Source of the DNA: Azoarcus sp. Aa7
Lineage (GTDB): Bacteria; Pseudomonadota; Gammaproteobacteria; Burkholderiales; Rhodocyclaceae
Reading direction: 5' to 3'
NCBI RefSeq assembly: GCF_014822185.1
Contig: NZ_QVLR01000040.1
Coordinates: forward strand, 62,001 to 126,000
DNA length: 64,000 nucleotides
In this document: positions 21,758 to 39,196 of the stretch, piece after piece
How the letters are laid out: the number at the start of each line of letters is the position of its first letter
Position numbering within the stretch: the first letter of the stretch is position 1
Notes under the pieces: model-generated
Seen by the model: the letters and a program-made list of their open reading frames with translations, nothing else
Database searches by the model: none
Told to the model about the DNA's origin: nothing
Position numbers and translations under genes: made by a program

Positions 21758-23632
21758 TCACTGGCTTCCAGGATGTTCCCTAACATCAAATTTCCGCCTG
21801 ACGGGATTCGGGTAACCGTCTTCCGGCAAAAGGGGCGCCCCGTCGACCAACACGTTAGCATAATAACCCGTAGAATCTACACGCAATACAGTTCTGGTTC
21901 CTGACTTAAGAAAAGTCACCTTATCTCCTGCCTGAAGCCCTGCGCCATCACTGCGTTCTCCATAAACAAAGCTGTGCACGCGAGGATTCTCCTTATTGGA
22001 CCAAATTCCATTTATCCAGTTATCGTCATTGATTTTTAACGGCATGACAATATTTGGGTTTGAATTAAGCAAGGCTAATGGGTCGGTCTTGAATCGCTGA
22101 CTAGTAACCAACCGAGGGAAATCGACCACTACCTCTCTAGAAGCCCATCCCGCCTGAACTTTGTCGAGATCCCCATGCACCGAGATTTGTGCGTTTGGAG
22201 CTAAATTCATGCTCCGTACAACGATTTCAACAATGGGCTTTGCATAGTATGCCCTGACCGACGACGGCATTCCAAATTCGTCATAAGCCATCGGCCTGGC
22301 AGAAGAATCCTCCCAAGAGGCCGGCCTTACCACCAATAAAACTCTCTCCGTCTTCTTGATAGCAGCATCCCTCAAGAAACTCGCCAAGTTATTCAACTCA
22401 AAAACATTTGGAAGAACAAACGCGCTTAATACAGTTCCGTGCGCATTAACCGTTATTAAATACAATAATGCGATCGACGGAATCCACAGATATTTAGCAT
22501 AACAACTAAGTGTTTCATATGAACTAAAGCCCCTTCGAATCAAAAAAACAGACTCTCTAAGGAGAAGGACTGTCATCACCACTATTGATGCAGCGACAGC
22601 CCCAATAGATCTATACGATGTCCAATTTTCTGCCGTAACCAAATTTGGCGCATACGAGCCGAACAAGCATAAAACACCATAAACAAATATGATTAAACTT
22701 GTAGACAACCCGTATTTGCCTAAAAAAACAAGAGCACTTAGAAGTATTAAGGAAATCGTCGCATACTGCAGAGCAGTGCTTCTAGGGACTGCATATAACG
22801 ATAGCGCGTTAGCGATCGGTTCAGAGAAAAACCAACTCAGCTTTCCATAAATATCTTGTACAAGCCCATATCGAGACGCATCATTCGGATATAGATATTG
22901 CCCGATTTTGAATATAATAAAGCCAGCAAGCATTGCCACCACAAAGGCCGCCACAGCATCAATCGCCCTCTCACCCCCCCAATCAGAAACGGCATCGGGC
23001 TTAGATAGCACTGACAGCAAGACCCCCGTACAAAATAGCATTGCCAGCGGTTGATATATGATAATCGCAATTAAAAGCAATACTGCCGCCAATGCTATTG
23101 CCAATCCTCTTGAGCGCTTGCGAATTGCGCATGCGGGCGTCAATACGAATGCGCTCAATATAGCTAACACGCCCGCAAATGGAGTTGTGAAATGCTGAGC
23201 CCAGGATGCATAAACATGGAAGGATGGCAACAATATGACTCCGCACGCTATCGCTAACGAGGATACGTAGTCGACACAGTGCCGTCTGGAAAAGAAATAC
23301 AAACAAACCCCAAGCAGCCATATTCCAATTATGGTTATAGAGCGAAGAATTGAAAGACCTTCGATCGACCCTGCCAAATAGAATCCTTGATCGAGCAGCA
23401 CTGCATTAAGCGGTCGTCCTGCACCAATCAGTAGCGGAAGCGTGTGATTACCACCCGTAATAGCGTCATGAAGGAAGTAGTAATCATCAAGCACGCCAAA
23501 GGTATTCAAAAGGACAACGGAATAGGCAGCCAAAACAACAGCCGCAATAATCAATGAAGCTAAAAACGATTGCGTAACAATAATATCTCTTGATCCATCC
23601 TCCGTCGATCTGGCTCTATCTACATTAATCAT
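21758..23632 (-). CDS. Large polytopic membrane protein, GT-C glycosyltransferase candidate
   Basis: 624 aa from 23632 (AAGGG upstream; ATGs at 23668 and 23689 also possible). About eleven membrane helices between residues 22 and 420, then a soluble C-terminal domain of roughly 200 residues. An Asp pair (VLDDYYF, residues 49-50) lies in the first loop after helix 1, where GT-C enzymes such as GtrII and ArnT carry catalytic acidic residues. I recognise no exact family. It is the last gene of a tightly coupled seven-gene run, and its start overlaps the preceding GT2 stop by 8 bp. Base composition is clearly AT-richer than core genes. A polymerase or other transporter role is not excluded. Confidence 0.68.
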   Translation of the reverse strand: MINVDRARSTEDGSRDIIVTQSFLASLIIAAVVLAAYSVVLLNTFGVLDDYYFLHDAITGGNHTLPLLIGAGRPLNAVLLDQGFYLAGSIEGLSILRSITIIGIWLLGVCLYFFSRRHCVDYVSSLAIACGVILLPSFHVYASWAQHFTTPFAGVLAILSAFVLTPACAIRKRSRGLAIALAAVLLLIAIIIYQPLAMLFCTGVLLSVLSKPDAVSDWGGERAIDAVAAFVVAMLAGFIIFKIGQYLYPNDASRYGLVQDIYGKLSWFFSEPIANALSLYAVPRSTALQYATISLILLSALVFLGKYGLSTSLIIFVYGVLCLFGSYAPNLVTAENWTSYRSIGAVAASIVVMTVLLLRESVFLIRRGFSSYETLSCYAKYLWIPSIALLYLITVNAHGTVLSAFVLPNVFELNNLASFLRDAAIKKTERVLLVVRPASWEDSSARPMAYDEFGMPSSVRAYYAKPIVEIVVRSMNLAPNAQISVHGDLDKVQAGWASREVVVDFPRLVTSQRFKTDPLALLNSNPNIVMPLKINDDNWINGIWSNKENPRVHSFVYGERSDGAGLQAGDKVTFLKSGTRTVLRVDSTGYYANVLVDGAPLLPEDGYPNPVRRKFDVREHPGSQ

Positions 23633-24515
23633 CACTTGCCCTTGCCTTTGTTTTTTTCTTAAAGCCATTGTGAGCATTACAATCAACATCTAACTTTGGG
23701 TTGTAAAAACCAGCACATGCGAGAAAAAGCACCTTCAGCACGGAAATATTCCCCTTAAAAGTGCTAATCTTCGTTGGCACTTCGCCTTTTGGGTATCGTC
23801 GAATAGTTGGAATTTCAATACAGCGGTACCCAAGAATAGGCGCGCAATATGATAAATACGCAAGAAGCTCATATGCTTGAAATACGTCACGAAATGGGGA
23901 AATTTCAGGGGCAAGCAGCATTTTCCTGCTGTACGCGCGAAACCCTTGGGTCGTGTCACTCCACCTAAAGCCTGATGCAAAGCTTAGACAGGGGGCGTGG
24001 ATAAAGCGAATAGCGAAATCTCTGGATTTTGGCGTGTTTTCCGCAATGCCACCGTGTATAAATCTGGAGGCCTGCGCGAAATCAACGCCGTCCATTAGTG
24101 CCTCAATGAATCGAGGTATGGATTCAGGGTCATCCTTGTCGTTTCCGTCAATGGTGACAATTCCTTGATAGCCTTGATCAAGAGCGAACGCGTAAGCGCA
24201 TCTAAGCTGGGCACTCAGTTTTCCAGGACCTGTCTTGACGACAACGCCTCGGACGCCTACGTGCTGAAGTGCTGCAAGTTCCAGTGAGCCGTCAGTGCTC
24301 CCGCCATCAACGATGATGAGGTCCGCAATTGCGGAAATCCGCGTAGCCTCCATCCGTTTGAGCAGACTCCTGATTCGGTCGCCTTCGTTGATAACCGGGA
24401 TCACAACGCAGTACGGATGCTGCTTCCCCAGCCACAGTGGCACTTCCATCGCTGGCACTTGCCACTTATCGCGCACCGTCGGAGACATTTCATTTATTCT
24501 ATTGATTTGGTTCAT
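23625..24515 (-). CDS. Family 2 glycosyltransferase, DPM1-like, soluble
   Basis: 296 aa. GT-A fold: CVVIPVINEGDRI (about 36-48), IIVDGGSTDGS, and TIDGNDKDDPESI with the metal-binding acidic cluster; SRFIHGG and QGFRAYSRKM are as in polyprenyl-phosphate sugar synthases. No C-terminal membrane helices, unlike GtrB. The likely donor is a nucleotide sugar and the acceptor may be polyprenyl phosphate. ATGA overlap with the small EamA gene upstream. Confidence 0.82.
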   Translation of the reverse strand: MNQINRINEMSPTVRDKWQVPAMEVPLWLGKQHPYCVVIPVINEGDRIRSLLKRMEATRISAIADLIIVDGGSTDGSLELAALQHVGVRGVVVKTGPGKLSAQLRCAYAFALDQGYQGIVTIDGNDKDDPESIPRFIEALMDGVDFAQASRFIHGGIAENTPKSRDFAIRFIHAPCLSFASGFRWSDTTQGFRAYSRKMLLAPEISPFRDVFQAYELLAYLSYCAPILGYRCIEIPTIRRYPKGEVPTKISTFKGNISVLKVLFLACAGFYNPKLDVDCNAHNGFKKKTKARASDD

Positions 24516-24868
24516 GCGACACGCGCGGTGATGAGCGCCACACCTGAAATTACAAGCAGAATGCCGACGCCTGTGTTCCAGTGGAATGGCTCACGAAAGA
24601 TTAGAACGGAAAGAACTGCAACTGTACCTACGGCCCCCGAAGTCAGCACTGGGTGTGCGACATTCAATGGCAACCTCGCTAGCGCTGCTGCGTACAGAAT
24701 AAATGCCCCGCCATACAAACCGAGCCCCAGCCAGAATGGCCAGTTGGTGAGGGCGGTGATGGGGTCGGCTAGCGATGGGAATTTTCGGGGGGGCGTCATG
24801 GCGATCTTGACCAGAACGCTGGCAGACGCATTGACAGTGATACCAAGCACCAATATGAGCCATTTCAT
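24512..24868 (-). CDS. Four-helix EamA/SMR-type membrane protein
   Basis: 118 aa from 24868, four membrane helices, size and pattern of ArnE/ArnF-type half-flippases (VLVKIAM, GLGLYGGAFILYAAALARLPLNVAHPV is split over helices 2-3, GILLVISGVALI at the end). ArnEF flips undecaprenyl-P-aminoarabinose. Here it lies between a sugar isomerase and a GT2 and may flip a lipid-linked sugar. The ATG overlaps the TGA of the TIM-barrel gene (TGATG) and its own stop overlaps the GT2 start (ATGA). Confidence 0.8.
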   Translation of the reverse strand: MKWLILVLGITVNASASVLVKIAMTPPRKFPSLADPITALTNWPFWLGLGLYGGAFILYAAALARLPLNVAHPVLTSGAVGTVAVLSVLIFREPFHWNTGVGILLVISGVALITARVA

Positions 24869-25698
24869 CACAAGGCGCCTCGTGTCGGACGGTAGCAAGC
24901 AACCGCACAGGAGAGTGCACGCTCGATAGAGACGAGGTGGGGCTCTTCAGTCGTTGCCACCATCTCAATGGATACCAGGTGCTCTGGAAGATGCCTGACA
25001 AGTGCTTGGTGATTAAGCCGATGATCAACTCCGCTGTCGCCTAGTGGAACCAGATCTGGCTCACTAGCATGCACATGTCCAACTAGGTGCGCACTACTCG
25101 CCAGTACGACCTCGGGAGATTCTTCATTTATCGCTAGTGCCCCCGTGTCAAACTGCATTCGGATGGCTCTGTGATTAACGGCACTTACAACATCGGCTGT
25201 CTCCGCACTGGACGTCATGAAGTTAGCTCCATAGCGTGTTGGATTAGGCTCTAGGCACACGATGACCCCACATGCCTGCGCGATATCACCAACGCGCTGG
25301 AAGAACGTCACTGCTTCAGCTAGCGCTTGTTCATCGCTCAAGCCTGAACGGTCGCGGTTTTTTGGCGATCCAAATACGAGGCGAGTCGCACCAAGGCCTG
25401 CCCCGATACGGCAAATCGCAGCCATCCGCTCGAGCAGAGCATTTCGAACGCCCCGTGAGCCAAAAACATTCAAACCGACTGTGCCAAACAGAAGCGCTTG
25501 CATGCCAGTGATTTCAATATCCCGCGCTGACCACCAACGCCGCACGTTCTCTACATCGGCTTGGGTTGCACTTTCAGGATCAGGGAAGTACTTTCCTGGA
25601 GCAATATCAATCGCGTCGACGCCGTATTTGTGCAACAGCGTTGCAACATTTTCTTCATCAGAGACGTCCCAAGCGATATTCGATATGGCAAGCCTCAT
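24868..25698 (-). CDS. Xylose-isomerase-like TIM-barrel protein
   Basis: 276 aa. The AP-endonuclease-2/xylose isomerase fold is indicated by VCLEPNP, MQFDTGAL, VGHVHASEPD and LVSIEM, which supply the Glu-Asp-His-Glu metal ligands of the family. It probably isomerises or epimerises a sugar or sugar phosphate. The start at 25698 overlaps the upstream stop (ATGA); a longer frame to 25800 lies inside the neighbour and is not used. Confidence 0.83.
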   Translation of the reverse strand: MRLAISNIAWDVSDEENVATLLHKYGVDAIDIAPGKYFPDPESATQADVENVRRWWSARDIEITGMQALLFGTVGLNVFGSRGVRNALLERMAAICRIGAGLGATRLVFGSPKNRDRSGLSDEQALAEAVTFFQRVGDIAQACGVIVCLEPNPTRYGANFMTSSAETADVVSAVNHRAIRMQFDTGALAINEESPEVVLASSAHLVGHVHASEPDLVPLGDSGVDHRLNHQALVRHLPEHLVSIEMVATTEEPHLVSIERALSCAVACYRPTRGAL

Positions 25699-31366: not shown

Positions 31367-33649
31367 TCATGCCCGACTTGGCGCCCCGAGTCGTTGTAAG
31401 ACGTATCGTCCGAAAGCCCGCACTACATCGTTTCGGATAAGCTTCCGTCCAAACCAAGTCTGGCTCAACGCGATGGCGAACTTAGCGACAGCCAGCGCCT
31501 CTGCAGATACCCTAAGCATATCCGACTCAGAAGACGTACTCTTTGGCGTAGCATTCCACAGCCAATCCACGGCCTCACCCAAACGTTTACATTCAAGCGC
31601 CTGAGCCACCAACTCGCGTCCTAATTGTGGAGTAATTGCGTTACGTGGCGTGGTCAAGCGAAAACGATGTGCCTCGTCCAAAATGGATAAGAAACGATCT
31701 ATCATGCCATCCCAAGATAACTTTGAAGATGCAATGGTTTTACATCGAGTCGACATCTGCCGCAGCGTAGAGCAGTCAGTTAACAAGCGAAGTAAGGCCG
31801 CAACATACTCTTCCAACTCCTCCCCCCCCTGAGAAATGAGCATCCCAGCATCTGCGCTCACTATCTCATCTTGGCCTCCGACCTTTGCCACCACTGGCAC
31901 AACGCCGGAAGCCAAAGCTTCCAGCAACGCAATAGAGATTCCTTCATAGGCCGATGGCATCAACAAAACGTCTGATGCGGCAAGGATCTCAAGCCAGCGG
32001 CGATGAGAAACTGAACCCAGCAACTGGACCTGATCCGTAAGTCGATATTCAGCTAGCAAATTTGCCAACTGGTCTCTCAACTCACCATCCCCGATGATGA
32101 CCGCTCGAAAAAGAGCACCTTGTTCGCGCACGCATCTCAATATTTCCGCCAGCATCGCGGGTCGCTTCTGTTCACAAATGCGGCCAGCGAAAACGATCAA
32201 TGGTATGTCATCATCAAGATCCAGTTCGAACCGTACATTCTCCCTATTCTTGCTACTTGGCTGTACCGCACGAACGCCGGTATACATCACCTTAATTCTG
32301 CTTTCATCGGCGCCGCGCCCCTGCATCCACTCGGCCAAGTGCGCTGTCGTGGTGATATTTTGATCAAGCAAGTCCTGATAACCGACCCCAAACCTCGGGT
32401 GCCCACCGTTCAACCAATGGGGCTCCTCAACGTGACACATGTCAACAAAGGCCACCTCTGGCGACAGGGCTTTGAGGTAGGGAAGACACTGATAGCCGAG
32501 CGAACTTCCTGTAATGACTACAGTATCGACTTTCCGTGACTCGATCACGTAAGCCAAGAACCTCGGATAGTCCGATGCACGGAGAAAGTTCGGTAGAACA
32601 AAAATATCGGACGTTAGTCGCGCAAACTCATGCTCCCAACGGTGATCAGTTGCCAGGGTCGCACAAACCGTTACGCCGTGCCCTCTAGCTCTCAGACCTT
32701 CAATGAGATCAAGGTTAACGCGATCTGCACCGCCCGTTACCATCCATGGGACGATGAACATTATTTGACGCCCCGTTGACGTCGCGACCAACGGATTGAA
32801 CACTGGAATCCGTGTTTCGACCGAATCATAGGGCGCGGGGTGCCGTCTCGATGGTTCTGGAAAGCGCTTTTCCAAGCCTGCGTACTTTGTGCGCATTAAC
32901 TCTTCAAACTCGTCGTTAACGCCCTCAGTCTTCATTACCTGCTCGAACCGGCCGCTGCCTCGTTTTCGATACCATTGCAGAAACTCACGAATGGTGTACC
33001 CCCAATGCCCCGCACTTGCCATCGCCAACCAAAAATCCCAATCTTCATGGCCAAACCGTATGGATTCGTCAAACCCACCACAATCTTCATACGCTGAGCG
33101 GCGAATCACCGAAATTGGTGGCCCGCTATTCGCCTGCAGGTGAGCCCTGCCTCTTTCGAAACCGGTCGTCCATAGGTAATTTTGGTCTCCGAACACAACG
33201 CTATAACTGTTGCAGAACGCAAACTCCGGGTTCGACTCAAGAAACCATACGCACTTTTCAAGGTACGTTGGCTCGACCATATCATCACTGTCGAGCAAAC
33301 AAATGTAGCTACCGCCAGTATTATGAAATGCGGTATTTCGCGCAGCGGCCGGCCCTGCATTCGACTGACGAATAACCTTGATGCGCGGATCCGTTGCTGC
33401 CAGCTTAGCCAATCTTTCCACTGAATCTTCGTCGGACGAACCGTCATCAACAATCACCCACTCCCAGTTTTGTAGCGACTGCGCCTGAAGCGACGCATAA
33501 GTCTCTATGAAAAAAGCTTCGGTGTTGTAGTAAGGTGTAACAATTGAGACCGCTGGCGCCCTACAATCCGCAGTGCAGCGATTATAGGTACATGAGACAA
33601 TTCTTCGCCCCGGATGATCGCAGAAATCCGGCTCCAAGTAGTTAATCAT
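31367..33649 (-). CDS. Two-domain glycosyltransferase: GT2 fused to GT4
   Basis: 760 aa from the ATG at 33649; a TTG at 33670 overlaps the upstream stop and is less likely. Residues about 35-270 are a GT2 domain (SIVTPYYNTEAFF, VDDGSSDED, LLDSDD, FGHEDWDFWL). Residues about 305-660 are a GT4 domain (FIVPWMVTGGADRVNLDLI, VFAGRICEQKRPAML, YEGISIALLEALASG with EX7E). A fusion can add two sugars in succession. A helical tail of about 90 residues follows. Confidence 0.88.
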   Translation of the reverse strand: MINYLEPDFCDHPGRRIVSCTYNRCTADCRAPAVSIVTPYYNTEAFFIETYASLQAQSLQNWEWVIVDDGSSDEDSVERLAKLAATDPRIKVIRQSNAGPAAARNTAFHNTGGSYICLLDSDDMVEPTYLEKCVWFLESNPEFAFCNSYSVVFGDQNYLWTTGFERGRAHLQANSGPPISVIRRSAYEDCGGFDESIRFGHEDWDFWLAMASAGHWGYTIREFLQWYRKRGSGRFEQVMKTEGVNDEFEELMRTKYAGLEKRFPEPSRRHPAPYDSVETRIPVFNPLVATSTGRQIMFIVPWMVTGGADRVNLDLIEGLRARGHGVTVCATLATDHRWEHEFARLTSDIFVLPNFLRASDYPRFLAYVIESRKVDTVVITGSSLGYQCLPYLKALSPEVAFVDMCHVEEPHWLNGGHPRFGVGYQDLLDQNITTTAHLAEWMQGRGADESRIKVMYTGVRAVQPSSKNRENVRFELDLDDDIPLIVFAGRICEQKRPAMLAEILRCVREQGALFRAVIIGDGELRDQLANLLAEYRLTDQVQLLGSVSHRRWLEILAASDVLLMPSAYEGISIALLEALASGVVPVVAKVGGQDEIVSADAGMLISQGGEELEEYVAALLRLLTDCSTLRQMSTRCKTIASSKLSWDGMIDRFLSILDEAHRFRLTTPRNAITPQLGRELVAQALECKRLGEAVDWLWNATPKSTSSESDMLRVSAEALAVAKFAIALSQTWFGRKLIRNDVVRAFGRYVLQRLGAPSRA

Positions 33650-33670
33650 GAGACACTCGAAAATGATCAA

Positions 33671-34858
33671 TCAAAAAACGGTGGCCAACAAAACACAAGC
33701 AAGAACGAACACCCACGACCCTTTAGCAATGTTCTGCCAAGTCTTCGGGACATCTCTAAGTCGAAGAAAGGGTTCTTCGATCTGATGATAGGTAACCCAA
33801 GAAACAAAGTAGAAAAATACAAAGTAAAGTGGGTAGAGTATAAACGGGTTTCCGTACACTTGATCGAACAGACCAAGATGTGAAAGCAGTCGATTGACCG
33901 CAATTATTACAAGAATGTGAACTAGATATAGCGAATAGGAAAGCTTGCTCGTTAGAACAATGAAGCCGCCCCGCGCATTAATTGAACGCAACGCATCAAA
34001 CCAAGGCAACAGTAGAGCACACAAGACTGCCTGAACTGTGTACAGATTAATTTGCAACGCGCGCGACTGCATCAGGTACGGCGCGTTCACAAACCACCAA
34101 GTGCACAGCAGCACAAGCAATACTGCAGTAATCGCCGTTCCCCTCCGAATCCATTCGAATCCAAAACCCCAGTAACGCTTGATTGCCGCCATTAACACGC
34201 CGAACATAATCGCATCAATGCGCGACAGCACAGTAAGACGAATCGTTCGATTATATTCATTCCAATCCTGAAACTGTGGATGTGAAAGGCGAAACGTATA
34301 CGCAACGATCAGGAACGACACGGCGGCCAATACGATCGCCAGACGCGCCCTCTTGGTGATCCTTTCCAAAACAAAGAAGGCAATCGGAAACCACAGGTAG
34401 AAGTGTTCCTCAATCGCCAAACTCCACGAGAGCTCAAAAAATTCCGGAATTTTGTACGCAAAATTCTGCATAAACACAAAATAATCTGGAAAATCGAGGA
34501 GCTCATGCCGACCATGGTAATCGAAGCGAAGAAACGCCAATAGCACAACGAAGTAAAGGGGCAAAGTGCGAAGCCATCGCCGTTTCCAAAATTCATTGAT
34601 ATCCGAGATCGAATGAAGACGCCCTTCGTCAATCAGGCGCATAATGATCGTACCGATCAAGTACCCGCTCAACACAAAGAAGAGCTCGACACCCAAGATT
34701 CCAAGCCTGCCGAATACTTGAATTTCCGGCGCTATTTTAGAATGTTCAAAACTATGTCCAATTAGCACAAATATGATTGCAAATGCACGAATTACATCCA
34801 ATCCGTAAACACGAACCGTCTTGATGTCGGTATTCTCTTGATTCATCGTTAAAATCAT
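33671..34858 (-). CDS. Acyltransferase-3 family membrane O-acyltransferase
   Basis: 395 aa with about ten membrane helices. Family features: VYGLDVIRAFAIIFVLIGHS (conserved His), LGILGVELFFVLSGYLIG, KRRWLRTLPLYF and LSWSLAIEEHFYLWFP. Such proteins O-acetylate surface polysaccharides using acyl-CoA. The ATG at 34858 is chosen with GAG upstream; 34846 is also possible. It ends just before the fused GT gene. Confidence 0.88.
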   Translation of the reverse strand: MILTMNQENTDIKTVRVYGLDVIRAFAIIFVLIGHSFEHSKIAPEIQVFGRLGILGVELFFVLSGYLIGTIIMRLIDEGRLHSISDINEFWKRRWLRTLPLYFVVLLAFLRFDYHGRHELLDFPDYFVFMQNFAYKIPEFFELSWSLAIEEHFYLWFPIAFFVLERITKRARLAIVLAAVSFLIVAYTFRLSHPQFQDWNEYNRTIRLTVLSRIDAIMFGVLMAAIKRYWGFGFEWIRRGTAITAVLLVLLCTWWFVNAPYLMQSRALQINLYTVQAVLCALLLPWFDALRSINARGGFIVLTSKLSYSLYLVHILVIIAVNRLLSHLGLFDQVYGNPFILYPLYFVFFYFVSWVTYHQIEEPFLRLRDVPKTWQNIAKGSWVFVLACVLLATVF

Positions 34859-34864
34859 CACCAC

Positions 34865-35230: not shown

Positions 35231-36928
35231 CTATAAAATATTATATCCACCTATACGATTGACAAATCGAACTACCCAATGATCACGAAGTTTTTTTAGC
35301 ATCGCTTCGCTTGCGACTAGCTTTTCATCGGCTTCACGGTGCCGAGCTCTAATCGCCGTAATTAACTGCTCGCAATCGGCCGCAGTACGCTCCCAAGCGT
35401 CACGCTGCGACGCCAACCATGCGTTGCCGCTGAGCAGCTCCTGAACATACGCTTGTAGAGCCGAGATCGAATGCTCTCGATCAGCCGCCGTTCGCTCCCA
35501 TATGTCGCGCTGCGACGCCAACCATGCGTTGCCGCTGAGCAGCTCCTGAACATACGCTTGTAGAGCCGAGATCGAGTGCTCTCGATCAGCCGCCGTTCGT
35601 TCCCATATGTCGCGCTGGGACGCCAACCCTGCGTTACTGCTGAGCAGCTCCTGCACATGTGCCTCCAGTGCAGCAATAGACTGCTCTCGATCAGCCGCGG
35701 TTTGCTCCCATACGTCGCGCTGCGATGCCAACCATGCGTTACCACTGAGCAGTTCCTGTACATGGGTCTGCAATGCCGAAAAAGACTGCGCCCGATCAAT
35801 AGCACTTCGCTCCCACGCTTCGCGCTGGGAGGTCAGCCATGCATTGCCCCTAAGCAGATCTTCCAGTTGCGCTTGCAGCGCCGTGATCGACTGCTCTCGC
35901 TCGTCCGCGGTTCGCTCCCACGCATCCCGTTGCTGGCGCAGCCAATCATTGGCTACCTTCAGATCCACGAGGGACACATTCAGAGCGTCAACCCGCTCCC
36001 GCATGAACCTCTCGGCTTTCAAGCGTTGATCCTGCCTAGCGATGAGGCTCAGCGCGGGCTTGAGCTCATTTAGCGTAAACGCCAAGTCATCAAAGGCGAC
36101 TGCAACCTCGCTAGCGTCAACGTCGACTGCTCCCATGGCCAAACGCTCCAACCAACCCTGGCACTTCAACACGGCACGCGGCACGTCGGGCAAGGCCGCA
36201 AGGTCGCTCCCACTTGCCACGTTGTGGCGTAGCTCACTCTCCAGGAACTCGCTCTTGTACGCGGCCAGTGCCGAAGGATCCGGTTTGGAAAGTGCCAGCG
36301 TGTCGCTAATTCTCAAGATTTCATGTATTGGATCTTCCATCAGACGATCGTAATCCACCACGACGCGCTGCGCACTCCGGGTTTCGGTGATAGCCGGGAC
36401 CACGTGCTCCAACCAGAGATAGAGCGTCTTTACCGAGTCGAAACCGTCGCGTTTCCGGAGGGACTCCACTACGCTTACGGGATTGCGCACCACAACGATA
36501 TAGCTCGCCTCGCAACCGACGGCACGAAACACCCCCTGCCAGAAAGGCAAGAGCCTCGCAGTACGTGGATCCTTAAAACCCCAAATTCCCGCAGCTGCGT
36601 TGCAGCGCGAGGAAACGAGATCGGACGCCCGCGCATGCAGCGCCCTAATTCTGTCCGTCGCGGGCAGATCCTTCAATAGAAGACCAAGCCCGTCGTAGGA
36701 ACTGCCTAGCTCAGCGAGCAGCTCCTCGTTAACACTCAGAACATCGCGATCCTCCCAAAACCCCTTCGGATTGTCTATGGAAGCGGGGTGGAGAACGTCG
36801 CCCAGCCTGACGCCGACCAATTCTAACGAACGGGTCACGGCACTCGTACCGCTCCGGTGCATGCCGAGGACGACGATCACACGGCGGTTGTGTTCCATCT
36901 GGACCATTTCTATGCGGACTATCTTCAT
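35231..36928 (-). CDS. Sulfotransferase domain with long repetitive coiled coil
   Basis: 565 aa from 36928 (ATGA overlap with the wzt stop, AAGGTGG upstream). Residues about 14-260 form a PAPS-sulfotransferase-like domain: 5'-phosphosulfate loop VLGMHRSGTSAVTRSL (about 21-36), FWEDRDV, FKDPRTARLLPFW, and the 3'-phosphate segment VVVRNPVSVVESL. Residues about 290-545 are a predicted coiled coil containing six 35-residue repeats (consensus NAWLASQRDxWERTAADREx then SIxALQAxVQELLSG). The chain ends in a basic/aromatic stretch, LRDHWVVRFVNRIGGYNIL. The layout recalls the chain terminator/ruler WbdD next to Wzm/Wzt. Sulfotransfer itself is predicted only. Confidence 0.82.
   Translation of the reverse strand: MKIVRIEMVQMEHNRRVIVVLGMHRSGTSAVTRSLELVGVRLGDVLHPASIDNPKGFWEDRDVLSVNEELLAELGSSYDGLGLLLKDLPATDRIRALHARASDLVSSRCNAAAGIWGFKDPRTARLLPFWQGVFRAVGCEASYIVVVRNPVSVVESLRKRDGFDSVKTLYLWLEHVVPAITETRSAQRVVVDYDRLMEDPIHEILRISDTLALSKPDPSALAAYKSEFLESELRHNVASGSDLAALPDVPRAVLKCQGWLERLAMGAVDVDASEVAVAFDDLAFTLNELKPALSLIARQDQRLKAERFMRERVDALNVSLVDLKVANDWLRQQRDAWERTADEREQSITALQAQLEDLLRGNAWLTSQREAWERSAIDRAQSFSALQTHVQELLSGNAWLASQRDVWEQTAADREQSIAALEAHVQELLSSNAGLASQRDIWERTAADREHSISALQAYVQELLSGNAWLASQRDIWERTAADREHSISALQAYVQELLSGNAWLASQRDAWERTAADCEQLITAIRARHREADEKLVASEAMLKKLRDHWVVRFVNRIGGYNIL
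35321..35950 (-). repeat. Six in-frame 105-bp tandem repeats
   Basis: Six units of 105 bp (35 codons, five heptads) within the sulfotransferase/coiled-coil gene, beginning at 35950, 35845, 35740, 35635, 35530 and 35425 on the minus strand. Units 4 (35531-35635) and 5 (35426-35530) differ at only four positions, so they arose by recent duplication. The outer units are more diverged and the last one is degenerate at its end. Confidence 0.9.
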
Positions 36929-38334
36929 GCCACCTTGGCGACGCACCCGAAATCCACGAGTGCAGTTGCGCAGTTTTCACTTTCTGCCAGAATTCTGAAC
37001 ATAACAATATCAACAAGACGATGCAGAAAATCCTCTCCCGAATCGGAGATCTGCCCTGTAACCCCGGCATTCATAAAGTAAACGCCCGGATTGAGGTTGG
37101 CGTTGAAGCGAAACTCCACTCGAAGCGTCTGTCCGGCCTCCACGAACGAAATCGCCTCAGCGATGGTCGGCGCCGAGATGCCCCCCCCCAGTTCAATGCC
37201 GGAAATGGTCTTGATCAGCATTCCGAAGCGGACATTACTGGCCGGATTTGAAAACCGAACTGTATAGATGTACCGATAGGATTCCCCACGCACCAAGTTG
37301 TTTACCGGCTCGCCCCTCAACGTCTGAATCTGCGGCGACTCGATCACCGCCCCGTGCGTTTCATACTCGATCGTGCTGCTAGGCACAAGATCAGGATCAA
37401 AGCTCGCGTGAACCGCCTCCGACTGCCGTGCGGCGCCATAATCTACCAATCCAAGCGTTCCATCCTTGCCTCGACCGTCAGCATCGCAGGGGCTGAGCCC
37501 CTCCCGCATCTGCTCCCGAATTACTTCTCGCTTGGCCGCCGGTGCATATAGCAACTTCTGGTATCGCCCGACGACCTGCTTCGGTGCGCCAGACGCCAGC
37601 AATTCTCCACCGTCGAGTAGGATGGCCCGATCGCAGAGTTCGACAATCGCTCCGCCCGAATGCGACACAAAGAGGATCGTCGCACCGCCAGCGCGAATCT
37701 CCTCGATGCGCGAAAAGCATTTGCGCTGGAAGCGCTCGTCGCCCACAGACAACGCTTCGTCAACCACAAGGATCTTTGGGACCACATTGATGGCGACCGC
37801 AAATGCCAGTCGTAACGCCATACCACTCGAATACGTCTTGACCGGCTGTTCGATGAATTTCCCGATATCTGCAAACCCCGCGATATCATCAAAACGATTA
37901 TCAATTTCGTATTTACTCAAACCCAGCACAGCGGCATTCATATACACATTTTCCCGCCCCGTGAATTCTGGGTTAAAGCCGGATCCGAGCTCCAGCAAGG
38001 CAGCAATACGGCCATGGGTTTCAACACTGCCACCGGTTGGCGACAACGTGCCACAGATCAATTGCAACAACGTAGATTTACCCGATCCGTTACACCCAAT
38101 GATTCCAACAGTTTCGCCGCTTTTGACTTCGAACGATACGTCTTTAAGTGCCCAAAACTCTCTGTAGTATGTTGGAAGCACTGATTTGCCCGGGGGAAAA
38201 AGCTTGCGCAGCGGCGAAACGGCCCCCCTCAATTTTGGAACAACAAATTGCTTGAGGCGGTCACGCGGGGTGTCGTAGATTTCGTAGCACTTGCAGAGAC
38301 CGCTGACGCGGATTGCAATATCACTAGAGGACAT
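36925..38334 (-). CDS. wzt: Polysaccharide ABC exporter ATPase with C-terminal cargo domain (Wzt)
   Basis: 469 aa. ABC domain: Walker A GCNGSGKST (80-88), signature region YSSGMALRLAFA, Walker B ILVVDEALSVGDE. After about residue 290 there is an extra domain rich in beta strands (IYTVRFSNPASNVRFG, SFVEAGQTLRVEFRFNANLNPGVYFMNAGV), as in Wzt proteins that recognise the capped non-reducing end of the O chain. It overlaps wzm by 11 bp and the sulfotransferase gene by 4 bp. Start at 38334; the frame upstream of it lies inside wzm. Confidence 0.93.
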   Translation of the reverse strand: MSSSDIAIRVSGLCKCYEIYDTPRDRLKQFVVPKLRGAVSPLRKLFPPGKSVLPTYYREFWALKDVSFEVKSGETVGIIGCNGSGKSTLLQLICGTLSPTGGSVETHGRIAALLELGSGFNPEFTGRENVYMNAAVLGLSKYEIDNRFDDIAGFADIGKFIEQPVKTYSSGMALRLAFAVAINVVPKILVVDEALSVGDERFQRKCFSRIEEIRAGGATILFVSHSGGAIVELCDRAILLDGGELLASGAPKQVVGRYQKLLYAPAAKREVIREQMREGLSPCDADGRGKDGTLGLVDYGAARQSEAVHASFDPDLVPSSTIEYETHGAVIESPQIQTLRGEPVNNLVRGESYRYIYTVRFSNPASNVRFGMLIKTISGIELGGGISAPTIAEAISFVEAGQTLRVEFRFNANLNPGVYFMNAGVTGQISDSGEDFLHRLVDIVMFRILAESENCATALVDFGCVAKVA

Positions 38335-39196
38335 CGGCAAACCCCTTCCTGGTCTTCTGGAACCAGGCATAGCCCGCCCAAGCCACGACGGAGGCGGCCA
38401 GCATGTAGAGGCTCAGGCCCGGCCAATCAGGCTGACGCCCCCAGATCAGCACTTCCCGCGCCTGCTCGATGATGAACGCGAGGGGGTTGGCCATGAGCCA
38501 AGGGCGGAATTCTTCGGGTAGCGCAGTGACCGGATAAAACACCGGGGAGAGAAACAACAGAATCGTTGTGACAATACCGATGGTTTGACCCACGTCACGC
38601 AGAAACACGCCTAATGAGGCGAGCATCCAGGCCAAACCCAAGGTGAGGACGACAAGTGGAAGAATCACCAGCGGTGCAAAAACTACCGTCCAGTGCAGAT
38701 AGCCGTTGAGGATCACAAAGGCAACCAGCAAAACGATCAGACTGATGAGGCAGTGAAACAGGGCTGCACCCTGACTGATGACGGGCAAGATTTCAAGCGG
38801 AAAGACGACTTTCTTGACATAGTTGACGTTGGAGAGAATCAGGCCTGGGGCGCGGTTGAGCACCTCGGCAAACAGGCCATGGACAAGCATACCGACGAAC
38901 AACACCACGGCAAACTGAGTATTGCTTTCTTCGCTTCCCAAGCCCCAGCGTGCTCTGAACACCACGGAGAACACAAATGTATACACCGCCAAGAGGAATA
39001 CGGGATTAATAATCGACCAAGCCAACCCCAAAGCGGAGCCCTTATAGCGGCCTAGCACTTCACGCTTAGTCATCTGCGCAATAAGCTGGCGGTTGTACCA
39101 CAGACTTTTTCCCAGGCCCATCAAAGAGATTGGCGGGGGGGTGCGAGAGACGGTTGCGCTTTGAGCAATAAATGTTGAGTGGCGAGTGGTGGTCAT
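38324..39196 (-). CDS. wzm: Polysaccharide ABC exporter permease (Wzm)
   Basis: 290 aa. ABC-2 type permease with six membrane helices; the N-terminal LIAQMTKREVLGRYKGSALG is the typical cytoplasmic coupling segment. With Wzt it exports the finished undecaprenyl-PP-linked O chain across the inner membrane. The ATG overlaps the stop of the small upstream gene (ATGA). Confidence 0.93.
   Translation of the reverse strand: MTTTRHSTFIAQSATVSRTPPPISLMGLGKSLWYNRQLIAQMTKREVLGRYKGSALGLAWSIINPVFLLAVYTFVFSVVFRARWGLGSEESNTQFAVVLFVGMLVHGLFAEVLNRAPGLILSNVNYVKKVVFPLEILPVISQGAALFHCLISLIVLLVAFVILNGYLHWTVVFAPLVILPLVVLTLGLAWMLASLGVFLRDVGQTIGIVTTILLFLSPVFYPVTALPEEFRPWLMANPLAFIIEQAREVLIWGRQPDWPGLSLYMLAASVVAWAGYAWFQKTRKGFADVL

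Follow-up and report, generated by a model that had tools for sequence, protein, structure and literature searches.

What does a sulfotransferase do in the slot directly behind an O-antigen exporter? In a 64,000-nucleotide stretch of Azoarcus sp. Aa7 (contig 40, positions 62001-126000, of a 5.39-Mb genome; hereafter the window), the genes wzm and wzt of an ATP-binding cassette (ABC) exporter are followed on the minus strand by a gene for a sulfotransferase (ST)-like domain joined to a long coiled coil, here called the ST-coil protein. Described terminators cap the glycan chain with methyl, methyl phosphate or 3-deoxy-D-manno-oct-2-ulosonic acid (Kdo), according to the available text of PMC11231755 and PMC9445017. 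We propose that the window encodes a sulfotransferase chain terminator with a coiled-coil ruler and a cap-reading exporter, and from the sequence comparisons below we put the probability of this reading at roughly 0.55.

In this proposal the ST-coil protein would be the terminator of an ABC-transporter-dependent O antigen or similar glycan. Its N-terminal ST domain would move sulfate from 3'-phosphoadenosine 5'-phosphosulfate (PAPS) onto the non-reducing end of the lipid-linked chain as it grows, and the coil would keep the ST active site at a fixed distance from the C-terminal end, about 37 nm for ~250 residues at the helix rise of 1.5 Å per residue. The polymerase, for which a double glycosyltransferase (GT) of the cluster is the candidate (GT2-GT4, Table 1), would sit at the membrane by the C-terminal end of the coil. 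Since the coil would space the ST from the polymerase, only chains long enough to reach the ST would be capped, and their growth would stop. The C-terminal domain (CTD) of Wzt would then read the sulfated end through a pocket that includes Arg451 and start export. The initial annotation had suggested a sulfate cap in place of methyl phosphate; the CTD clade and the adenosine 5'-phosphosulfate (APS) kinase neighbours described below favour that idea, whereas sulfate transfer and its position at the non-reducing end, like ruler function, cap recognition and the polymerase partner, are steps that we infer for the ST-coil system.

We asked whether the N-terminal domain is a sulfotransferase at all. 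Pfam matched the protein to Sulfotransfer_3 at 22.7 bits, with a cut-off of 27 bits; neither a kinase nor a methyltransferase domain was found by Pfam, Sulfotransfer_3 and coil families being the only matches up to an E value of 0.01. A sequence search of the PDB with the full protein gave chance or coil matches only, and a profile built from eight ST relatives matched solved sulfotransferases (4gox, E 6e-6; the CurM ST, E 1e-4). An AlphaFold model was built on a 69-row alignment (A2, which uses 68 of the 80 kept loci described below); its mean predicted local distance difference test score (pLDDT) was 81.8, and most of the ST domain reached ~95 or higher. By VIA-align the best structural match of this domain was human TPST1 (5wri, Z 15.6, root-mean-square deviation (rmsd) 4.0 over 215 residues), followed by 4gox (Z 15.5), with TPST2 at about Z 15. 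All 50 VIA-align entries shown are sulfotransferases, although a few, such as Teg12 and Teg14, do not carry that name in their titles. Identity to solved sulfotransferases is ~12-20%, and the Foldseek list also includes P-loop kinases lower down. The predicted domain clearly has the PAPS-sulfotransferase fold.

The residues expected of a PAPS site are conserved as well. Glu59, Lys119, Arg148, Pro150 and Ser156 are invariant in the 69 rows, and the spacing of 8 from Arg148 to Ser156 is the same in 4gox by alignment. The GMHRSGTS loop is also invariant in these rows, partly by construction because the locus scan used a GMHRSGT pattern; relatives in family genomes, which were found by protein similarity, keep it with small changes (GMHRCGTS in locus L025, GPHRSGTS in L026). 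In sulfotransferases, motifs of these two kinds contact PAPS at its 5' and 3' phosphates. The initial annotation had made its case depend on a PAPS site in the predicted structure, and we found a PAPS-sulfotransferase fold whose second phosphate-binding motif does not vary across the alignment.

Within the genus a match was present in 1 of 17 genomes, the window's own, and within the family in 17 of 297. Scanning named genome contigs with the GMHRSGT-containing pattern gave at least 582 relatives, of which the best-scoring 80 were kept; these 80 are, judged by title, mostly from Pseudomonadota, with a few from other phyla, many of the latter metagenome bins. By these matches the ST-coil architecture is widespread and not unique to this genome. 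Fifty of the 80 proteins have at least 500 residues after the ST domain, and a Pfam scan of that region (begun ~120 residues past the ST domain, up to 1000 residues, multiple matches per protein allowed) matched GT2 in 23, GT4 family in 21, WbsX in 13 and RgpF in 13. The window protein is the unfused form, with no GT module. Relatives at 30-35% identity, mostly annotated 'sulfotransferase', also occur on plasmids pB and pA of Cereibacter sphaeroides 2.4.1 (L195 and L196). One lies near a rhamnan synthesis F family protein, upstream of kaiC; no gene named Wzt was present in the plasmid stretches examined, and one relative is near another ABC exporter.

The position behind wzt recurs. In 28 of the 80 ST loci wzt is directly upstream on the same strand with a gap below 200 bp, often overlapping; a Wzt lies elsewhere in the examined stretch in 11, and 4 have no upstream sequence. 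Among the 28 directly upstream Wzts, 23 have at least 400 aa, and that of L042 is cut by a contig end. Carriers of the window's gene order include Solimicrobium silvestre S20-91 (L071), whose ST-coil protein is unfused and has an 84-bp repeat, and Massilia eburnea JCM 31587 (L034). Elsewhere among loci with a Pfam Wzt_C domain, wzt is followed by a methyltransferase-coil protein in L153 and L155, and by one with fused GT modules in L154 and L169.

The window Wzt carries the additional C-terminal domain that the initial annotation had described, matching Pfam Wzt_C at 101.6 bits in addition to ABC_tran. The predicted model of this domain matches 2r5o (Z 16.0), 8dky (Z 15.2, rmsd 2.4 over 128 residues) and 5hno (Z 13.9), and as modelled it is a beta-sandwich carbohydrate-binding domain (CBD) like those of the O9a, O12 and Aquifex aeolicus Wzts. 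A CTD tree, made by a quick method, compared 25 ST-linked domains (the window, the 23 of at least 400 aa, and L147) with 30 controls; the Wzts below 400 aa (5 of 28) were excluded, as was L151, which had no Wzt above threshold. In all, Wzt_C loci were sampled from 143 and 398 genomes. Of the ST-linked CTDs, 23 fell into one starred clade (Shimodaira-Hasegawa-like approximate likelihood-ratio test (SH-aLRT) support 96) together with L159, and L158 and L167 joined it at 94 (not starred). These three had been entered as controls without an ST, and yet in each of them the first or second gene behind wzt is an ST or resembles one. In L167 it encodes a Sulfotransfer_3 protein that ends in a coil (E 2e-23); the small protein of L159 shows an ST-like motif, matches heparan sulfate 2-O-sulfotransferase weakly (E 0.12) and has no Pfam match. 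The ST-like genes of L158 (10177-11400) and of L191 (7112-8641), a locus described below, lie directly after wzt; they were called from IHSLFRSGST-type P-loop motifs read by eye, have no Pfam match at E 0.01, and possibly represent an undescribed sulfotransferase family.

The presumed cap pocket appears to differ between the Wzts of the ST clade and the methyltransferase controls. In the A. aeolicus Wzt structure, Leu300, Thr346, Ala348 and Trp362 form the pocket for the 3-O-methyl group of the cap, with Trp362 stacking on the cap (PMC9445017). In a weak pairwise alignment these correspond to L385, N434, G436 and R451 of the window Wzt, and the end points of the 8dky structural match agree with that alignment to about one residue. 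Arg451 is invariant in the clade (23/23), as are Asn434, Gly436, Tyr336 and Arg381. Seven controls have Trp at position 451 (L152-L157 and L161), six of them with a methyltransferase beside wzt by Pfam; the nine methyltransferase controls outside the ST clade (L153-L157, L161, L163, L164 and L169) have Trp in six, Tyr in two, His in one and Arg in none. Arg also occurs in 5 of 29 controls other than L159 (L158, L167, L148, L162 and L170); in L148 an ST gene lies beside wzt on the opposite strand. Like the window Wzt, 2r5o, which we take to be the E. coli O9a domain, has Arg at the aligned position. The E. coli O9a cap is methyl phosphate, as given in the available text of PMC11231755. Together these alignments suggest that the residue at 451 follows cap chemistry, a contrast that was noticed only after the alignment had been made. 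A Fisher comparison of 23:0 with 0:6 is not relied on, as it omitted L163, L164 and L169 and treated related rows as independent. Given an ST in the post-wzt slot and a reading domain whose former methyl pocket appears polar and basic, sulfate capping would be the best explanation.

We also searched in the other direction, with the CTD alone. Its profile, run against 398 genomes of the phylum, found 10 new loci, none on a contig equal in length to one of the profile set; L192 is cut by a contig end, which leaves nine readable loci. In six of these an ST is first or second after wzt: L185, L186, L187 and L189 encode the same ST family as the window, L193 a Sulfotransfer_1 protein (E 2e-17) with a coil-like tail, and L191 an ST recognised by motif only, so that two of the six are other ST types. 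L190 and L194 have an ST elsewhere in the stretch. By profile methods an ST lay within 6 kb in 7 of 9 loci compared with 5 of 29 other Wzt_C loci (p 0.002); the control figure was counted by hand (L147, L148, L150, L161 and L168, the last at 5.1 kb, among 32 loci less L158, L159 and L167), and Sulfotransfer_2 was left out of the search in the ten CTD-first genomes. Arg stands at the 451-equivalent in 10 of 10 new loci, read from the tails, a result partly built in because the profile itself favours Arg.

APS kinase makes PAPS, and PAPS genes together with sulfotransferases are described as a hallmark of sulfated polysaccharide clusters in the available text of PMC11641403. Of 89 unique ST loci, 19 have a CysC (APS kinase) gene in the examined flanks, and in 10 of the 89 it is within 400 bp of the ST gene; counted by rows the figure is 20 of 90, L018 having been dropped as it shares a contig with L088. 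An APS kinase near the ST gene is expected by chance in ~1% of cases, a rough estimate from a few genes per genome, and the binomial p is 6e-20. Among the 32 other Wzt_C loci, some with short stretches, APS kinase was found in L158 alone, where the protein encoded next to wzt is ST-like and ends in a coil-like tail; an alternative control count of 0 of 30 omits L147 and L158. At genome level the match is uninformative, being present in 32 of 35 genomes with or without an ST-coil protein. The window genome itself carries a pair of complete CysNC genes that resemble each other (L108 and L109; contigs 9 and 41), a predicted PAPS supply that is a weak argument given the 32 of 35 genomes.

The initial annotation had described ~250 residues of coil behind the ST domain, and this agrees with our analysis: ~250-290 residues after the domain are helical, and a heptad pattern spans residues 304-553 by our own uncalibrated heuristic, on which all coil assignments here are based. 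In the AlphaFold model a helix from 273 to 429 is followed by a poorly modelled stretch and then by a helix to 559, with low confidence at ~424-503. Six 35-aa units occupy residues 323-532. Units four and five are identical at 33 of 35 residues, which makes a recent duplication likely from the sequence, and copy number may vary between strains. Tandem repeats follow the ST domain in 31 of 90 ST genes (89 loci and the window), and 26 of these 31 have a best period divisible by 21 bp, where chance would give 1 in 7 in-frame periods. In L063 and L070, which are 89% identical, a 14-aa coil indel corresponds to two heptads. The relatives L028, L036 and L147 have short coils.

A number of observations weigh against the proposed terminator. 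No Wzt was found in the examined stretch of 37 of the 80 ST loci, and in 24 of these the stretch covers 6 kb or more on the upstream side and 4 kb or more on the downstream side; the ST family is therefore not tied to Wzt. Seven of those 24 show a weaker match to an ABC ATPase, in most cases 217-227 aa long, which we read as resembling capsule KpsT. L045, L065, L075 and L086 have complete but short Wzts (246-295 aa), hence without a reading domain. The search for co-occurring ST-coil and Wzt C-domain pairs proposed in the initial annotation was borne out in part, by the 28 loci directly behind wzt, the 23 of 25 CTDs in one clade and the loci of the CTD-first search; across the sampled loci the ST-Wzt link is strong but not general. 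Although ST-linked, the CTDs of L028 and L147 fall elsewhere in the tree than the clade and do not have the Arg, and their ST proteins have short coils. The Wzt ATPase domain also clusters with ST linkage, less firmly (85), so that shared operon descent explains part of the CTD clade. Trp is not universal with methyltransferases, as L163, L164 and L169 have Tyr or His; L162 and L170, outside the clade, have Arg with no ST found within 6 kb; and L161 combines an ST beside wzt (opposite strand), a methyltransferase and a Trp-type CTD. In L188, which has an Arg-type CTD, no ST was found in 15 kb, Sulfotransfer_2 not having been searched. In the Arg-type loci L167, L189 and L190 the gene that follows wzt encodes a methyltransferase and precedes the ST gene or is separate from it, so a methylated end is possible there, and a doubly modified, methylated and sulfated, end is conceivable. 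The Pfam score of the ST domain lies below the cut-off, and no APS kinase is present in the window, the copies of the genome being on other contigs. The authors who described an Aeromonas salmonicida cluster with an ST-domain gene report no such residue in its O antigen in the text available (PMC4483657), and we found no sulfate, end-group or chain-length data for any member of the ST-coil family. The probability is not set higher because of the methyltransferases in three Arg-type loci, the Arg without ST in L162 and L170, and a Trp count of only 6 of 9.

A broader version of the proposal is tentative, and we would sooner bet against it than for it. Sulfate would be a general mark of a finished chain, with STs of several unrelated families recruited independently, each with Wzt reading domains of one kind. 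The residue at the Trp362 position would then help to forecast the cap: Trp would indicate methyl, and Arg either sulfate or methyl phosphate. Heptad repeats duplicated in frame would make the ruler evolvable.

Among the alternatives, the one that survives best, unlikely as we judge it, is that the ST decorates every repeat unit with sulfate at internal residues and the coil is a scaffold for the ST, the glycosyltransferases and the exporter. Bacteria are known to make sulfated polysaccharides from clusters that include PAPS genes and STs (PMC11641403, available text), APS kinase neighbours fit any sulfation, many relatives are in loci without Wzt, and four ST-linked Wzts have no reading domain. 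Such decoration, however, leaves unexplained why different ST types are paired with a single CBD clade in which the cap pocket is altered, and why methyltransferase-coil proteins fill the same slot elsewhere.

We consider it improbable that the P-loop domain is no longer a working PAPS sulfotransferase, or moves a group other than sulfate, and acts as a terminator or in acceptor binding by other chemistry. The sub-threshold Pfam score, the low identity to solved sulfotransferases, the P-loop kinases in the Foldseek list and the methyltransferase genes that precede the ST in some relatives would fit this explanation; the invariance of R148, S156, K119 and Glu59 in 69 rows, the adjacent APS kinases of relatives and the other ST families found beside Wzts with a similar CBD argue against it. 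That the ST caps the end and the CBD reads the cap with no ruler function of the coil, length being set by stoichiometry or kinetics, is a long shot that the short coils of L028, L036 and L147 would suit, but extended coils mark known terminators and act as a molecular ruler in O9 and O12 (PMC11231755, available text), and the repeat units preserve the heptad.

The features of the proposed terminator-exporter system are collected in Table 1. The ST-coil open reading frame (ORF) as listed spans 35231-36946 (minus strand) from a GTG start; translation from the ATG at 36928 gives 565 aa, and this codon shares letters with the stop of wzt (ATGA), which accords with the overlap reported in the initial annotation and suggests, from the gene layout, that wzt and the ST-coil gene are translationally coupled. 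Wzt has an alternative ATG start at 38334. The copy number of the repeat at 35365-35920 may differ between strains. G+C is ~45-57% across roughly 22-44 kb of the window, between flanks of ~64-71%; this base composition suggests an acquired glycan cluster.

Table 1. Coordinates, within the window, of the proposed terminator, the exporter and neighbouring genes.
Feature	Position	Strand	Basis
ST-coil protein, 565 aa, proposed chain terminator and ruler	35231..36928	-	ORF, ATGA overlap, Pfam, fold
GMHRSGTS, residues 22-29, 5'-phosphosulfate-binding-like loop	36842..36865	-	conserved in relatives
R148-N-P150...S156, 3'-phosphate-binding-like motif	36461..36487	-	R148, P150, S156 invariant, 69 rows
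Long helix/coiled coil, residues 273-559	35252..36112	-	AlphaFold model, heptad pattern
Tandem repeat, unit 105 bp (35 aa, equal to five heptads), 5.3 copies with 80% matches	35365..35920	-	
Wzt, ABC ATPase and C-terminal carbohydrate-binding domain, 481 aa	36925..38370	-	Pfam ABC_tran, Wzt_C; 8dku
Wzt C-terminal domain, residues 328-481	36928..37389	-	tree, residue signature, predicted model, structure matches
Wzt Arg451 codon	37018..37020	-	weak alignment with A. aeolicus Trp362; aligned with Arg of 2r5o
Wzm, exporter membrane part	38324..39196	-	Pfam ABC2_membrane
GT2-GT4 double glycosyltransferase, 767 aa, candidate polymerase partner	31367..33670	-	Pfam
Acyltransferase 3 family protein between ST-coil and GT2-GT4	33671..34864	-	Pfam

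At 21758-24898 (minus strand), genes for a GtrII-family transferase (643 aa), a GT2 protein (296 aa) and a small membrane-like ORF of 128 aa lie in a row, which looks like a periplasmic glycosylation (Gtr-type) module at the cluster end. The 643- and 296-aa ORFs (21758-24515) had been considered as CysNC/CysD by size and were rejected, since Pfam identifies them as the GtrII-type transferase and GT2.

If the proposal is true, a sulfate cap would be a new export signal and a new way to decide that a chain is finished and exportable, a widespread family, annotated mostly just as 'sulfotransferase' in the records examined, would gain a role, and chain-end chemistry might be forecast from exporter sequence. 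The repeat array gives a direct route to the ruler model, as whole units are removable. One terminal sulfate per chain would easily be missed in repeat-unit nuclear magnetic resonance (NMR), so it may be worth re-examining structures already published. In the texts and excerpts covered by our literature search we found no published description of a sulfotransferase terminator or a terminal O-antigen sulfate, though an earlier mention is possible.

The nearest known counterpart is WbdD of E. coli O9a and K. pneumoniae O3, in which the enzyme is also N-terminal to a long coil, the polymerase is a separate protein, a Wzt reads the cap and the cap is anionic, as predicted here; Arg at CBD position 451 is common to the window Wzt and 2r5o, presumably the O9a domain. 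WbdD is a methyltransferase-kinase-coiled coil protein, whereas the ST-coil protein has a sulfotransferase and neither of those domains by Pfam. In K. pneumoniae O3, O4, O7 and O12 the terminators sit at the far end of the coiled-coil ruler, and WbbB (O12) and ORF6/ORF7 (O7/O4) have a terminator-coil(-glycosyltransferase) layout; ST relatives, 50 of 80 of which are long enough and which often carry GT modules by the Pfam counts, match it (PMC11231755, available text). The terminators of WbbB and ORF6/ORF7 are Kdo transferases or methyltransferase-kinases and not sulfotransferases, and no word beginning with 'sulf' occurs in the main text of that paper as available. The A. aeolicus Wzm-Wzt has the same transporter and CBD fold as the window Wzt, and its methyl pocket differs at the residues weakly aligned above (PMC9445017, available text). 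TPST1/2, the Ols ST (4gox) and the CurM ST (4gbm) have the fold and the 3'-phosphate motif in common with the ST domain, which differs from TPST1/2 and the polyketide-synthase STs in its ~16-20% identity, its fused coil and a presumed glycan acceptor. A. salmonicida ORF19, which belongs to an ABC-type O-antigen cluster and lies between wzt and wbbB, also has an ST domain; unlike the ST-coil protein, it encodes a 216-aa stand-alone protein with a separate WbbB present, as far as the available text describes it (PMC4483657). We rate the putative ST terminator of the window as a variant of the known polymerase-terminator arrangement.

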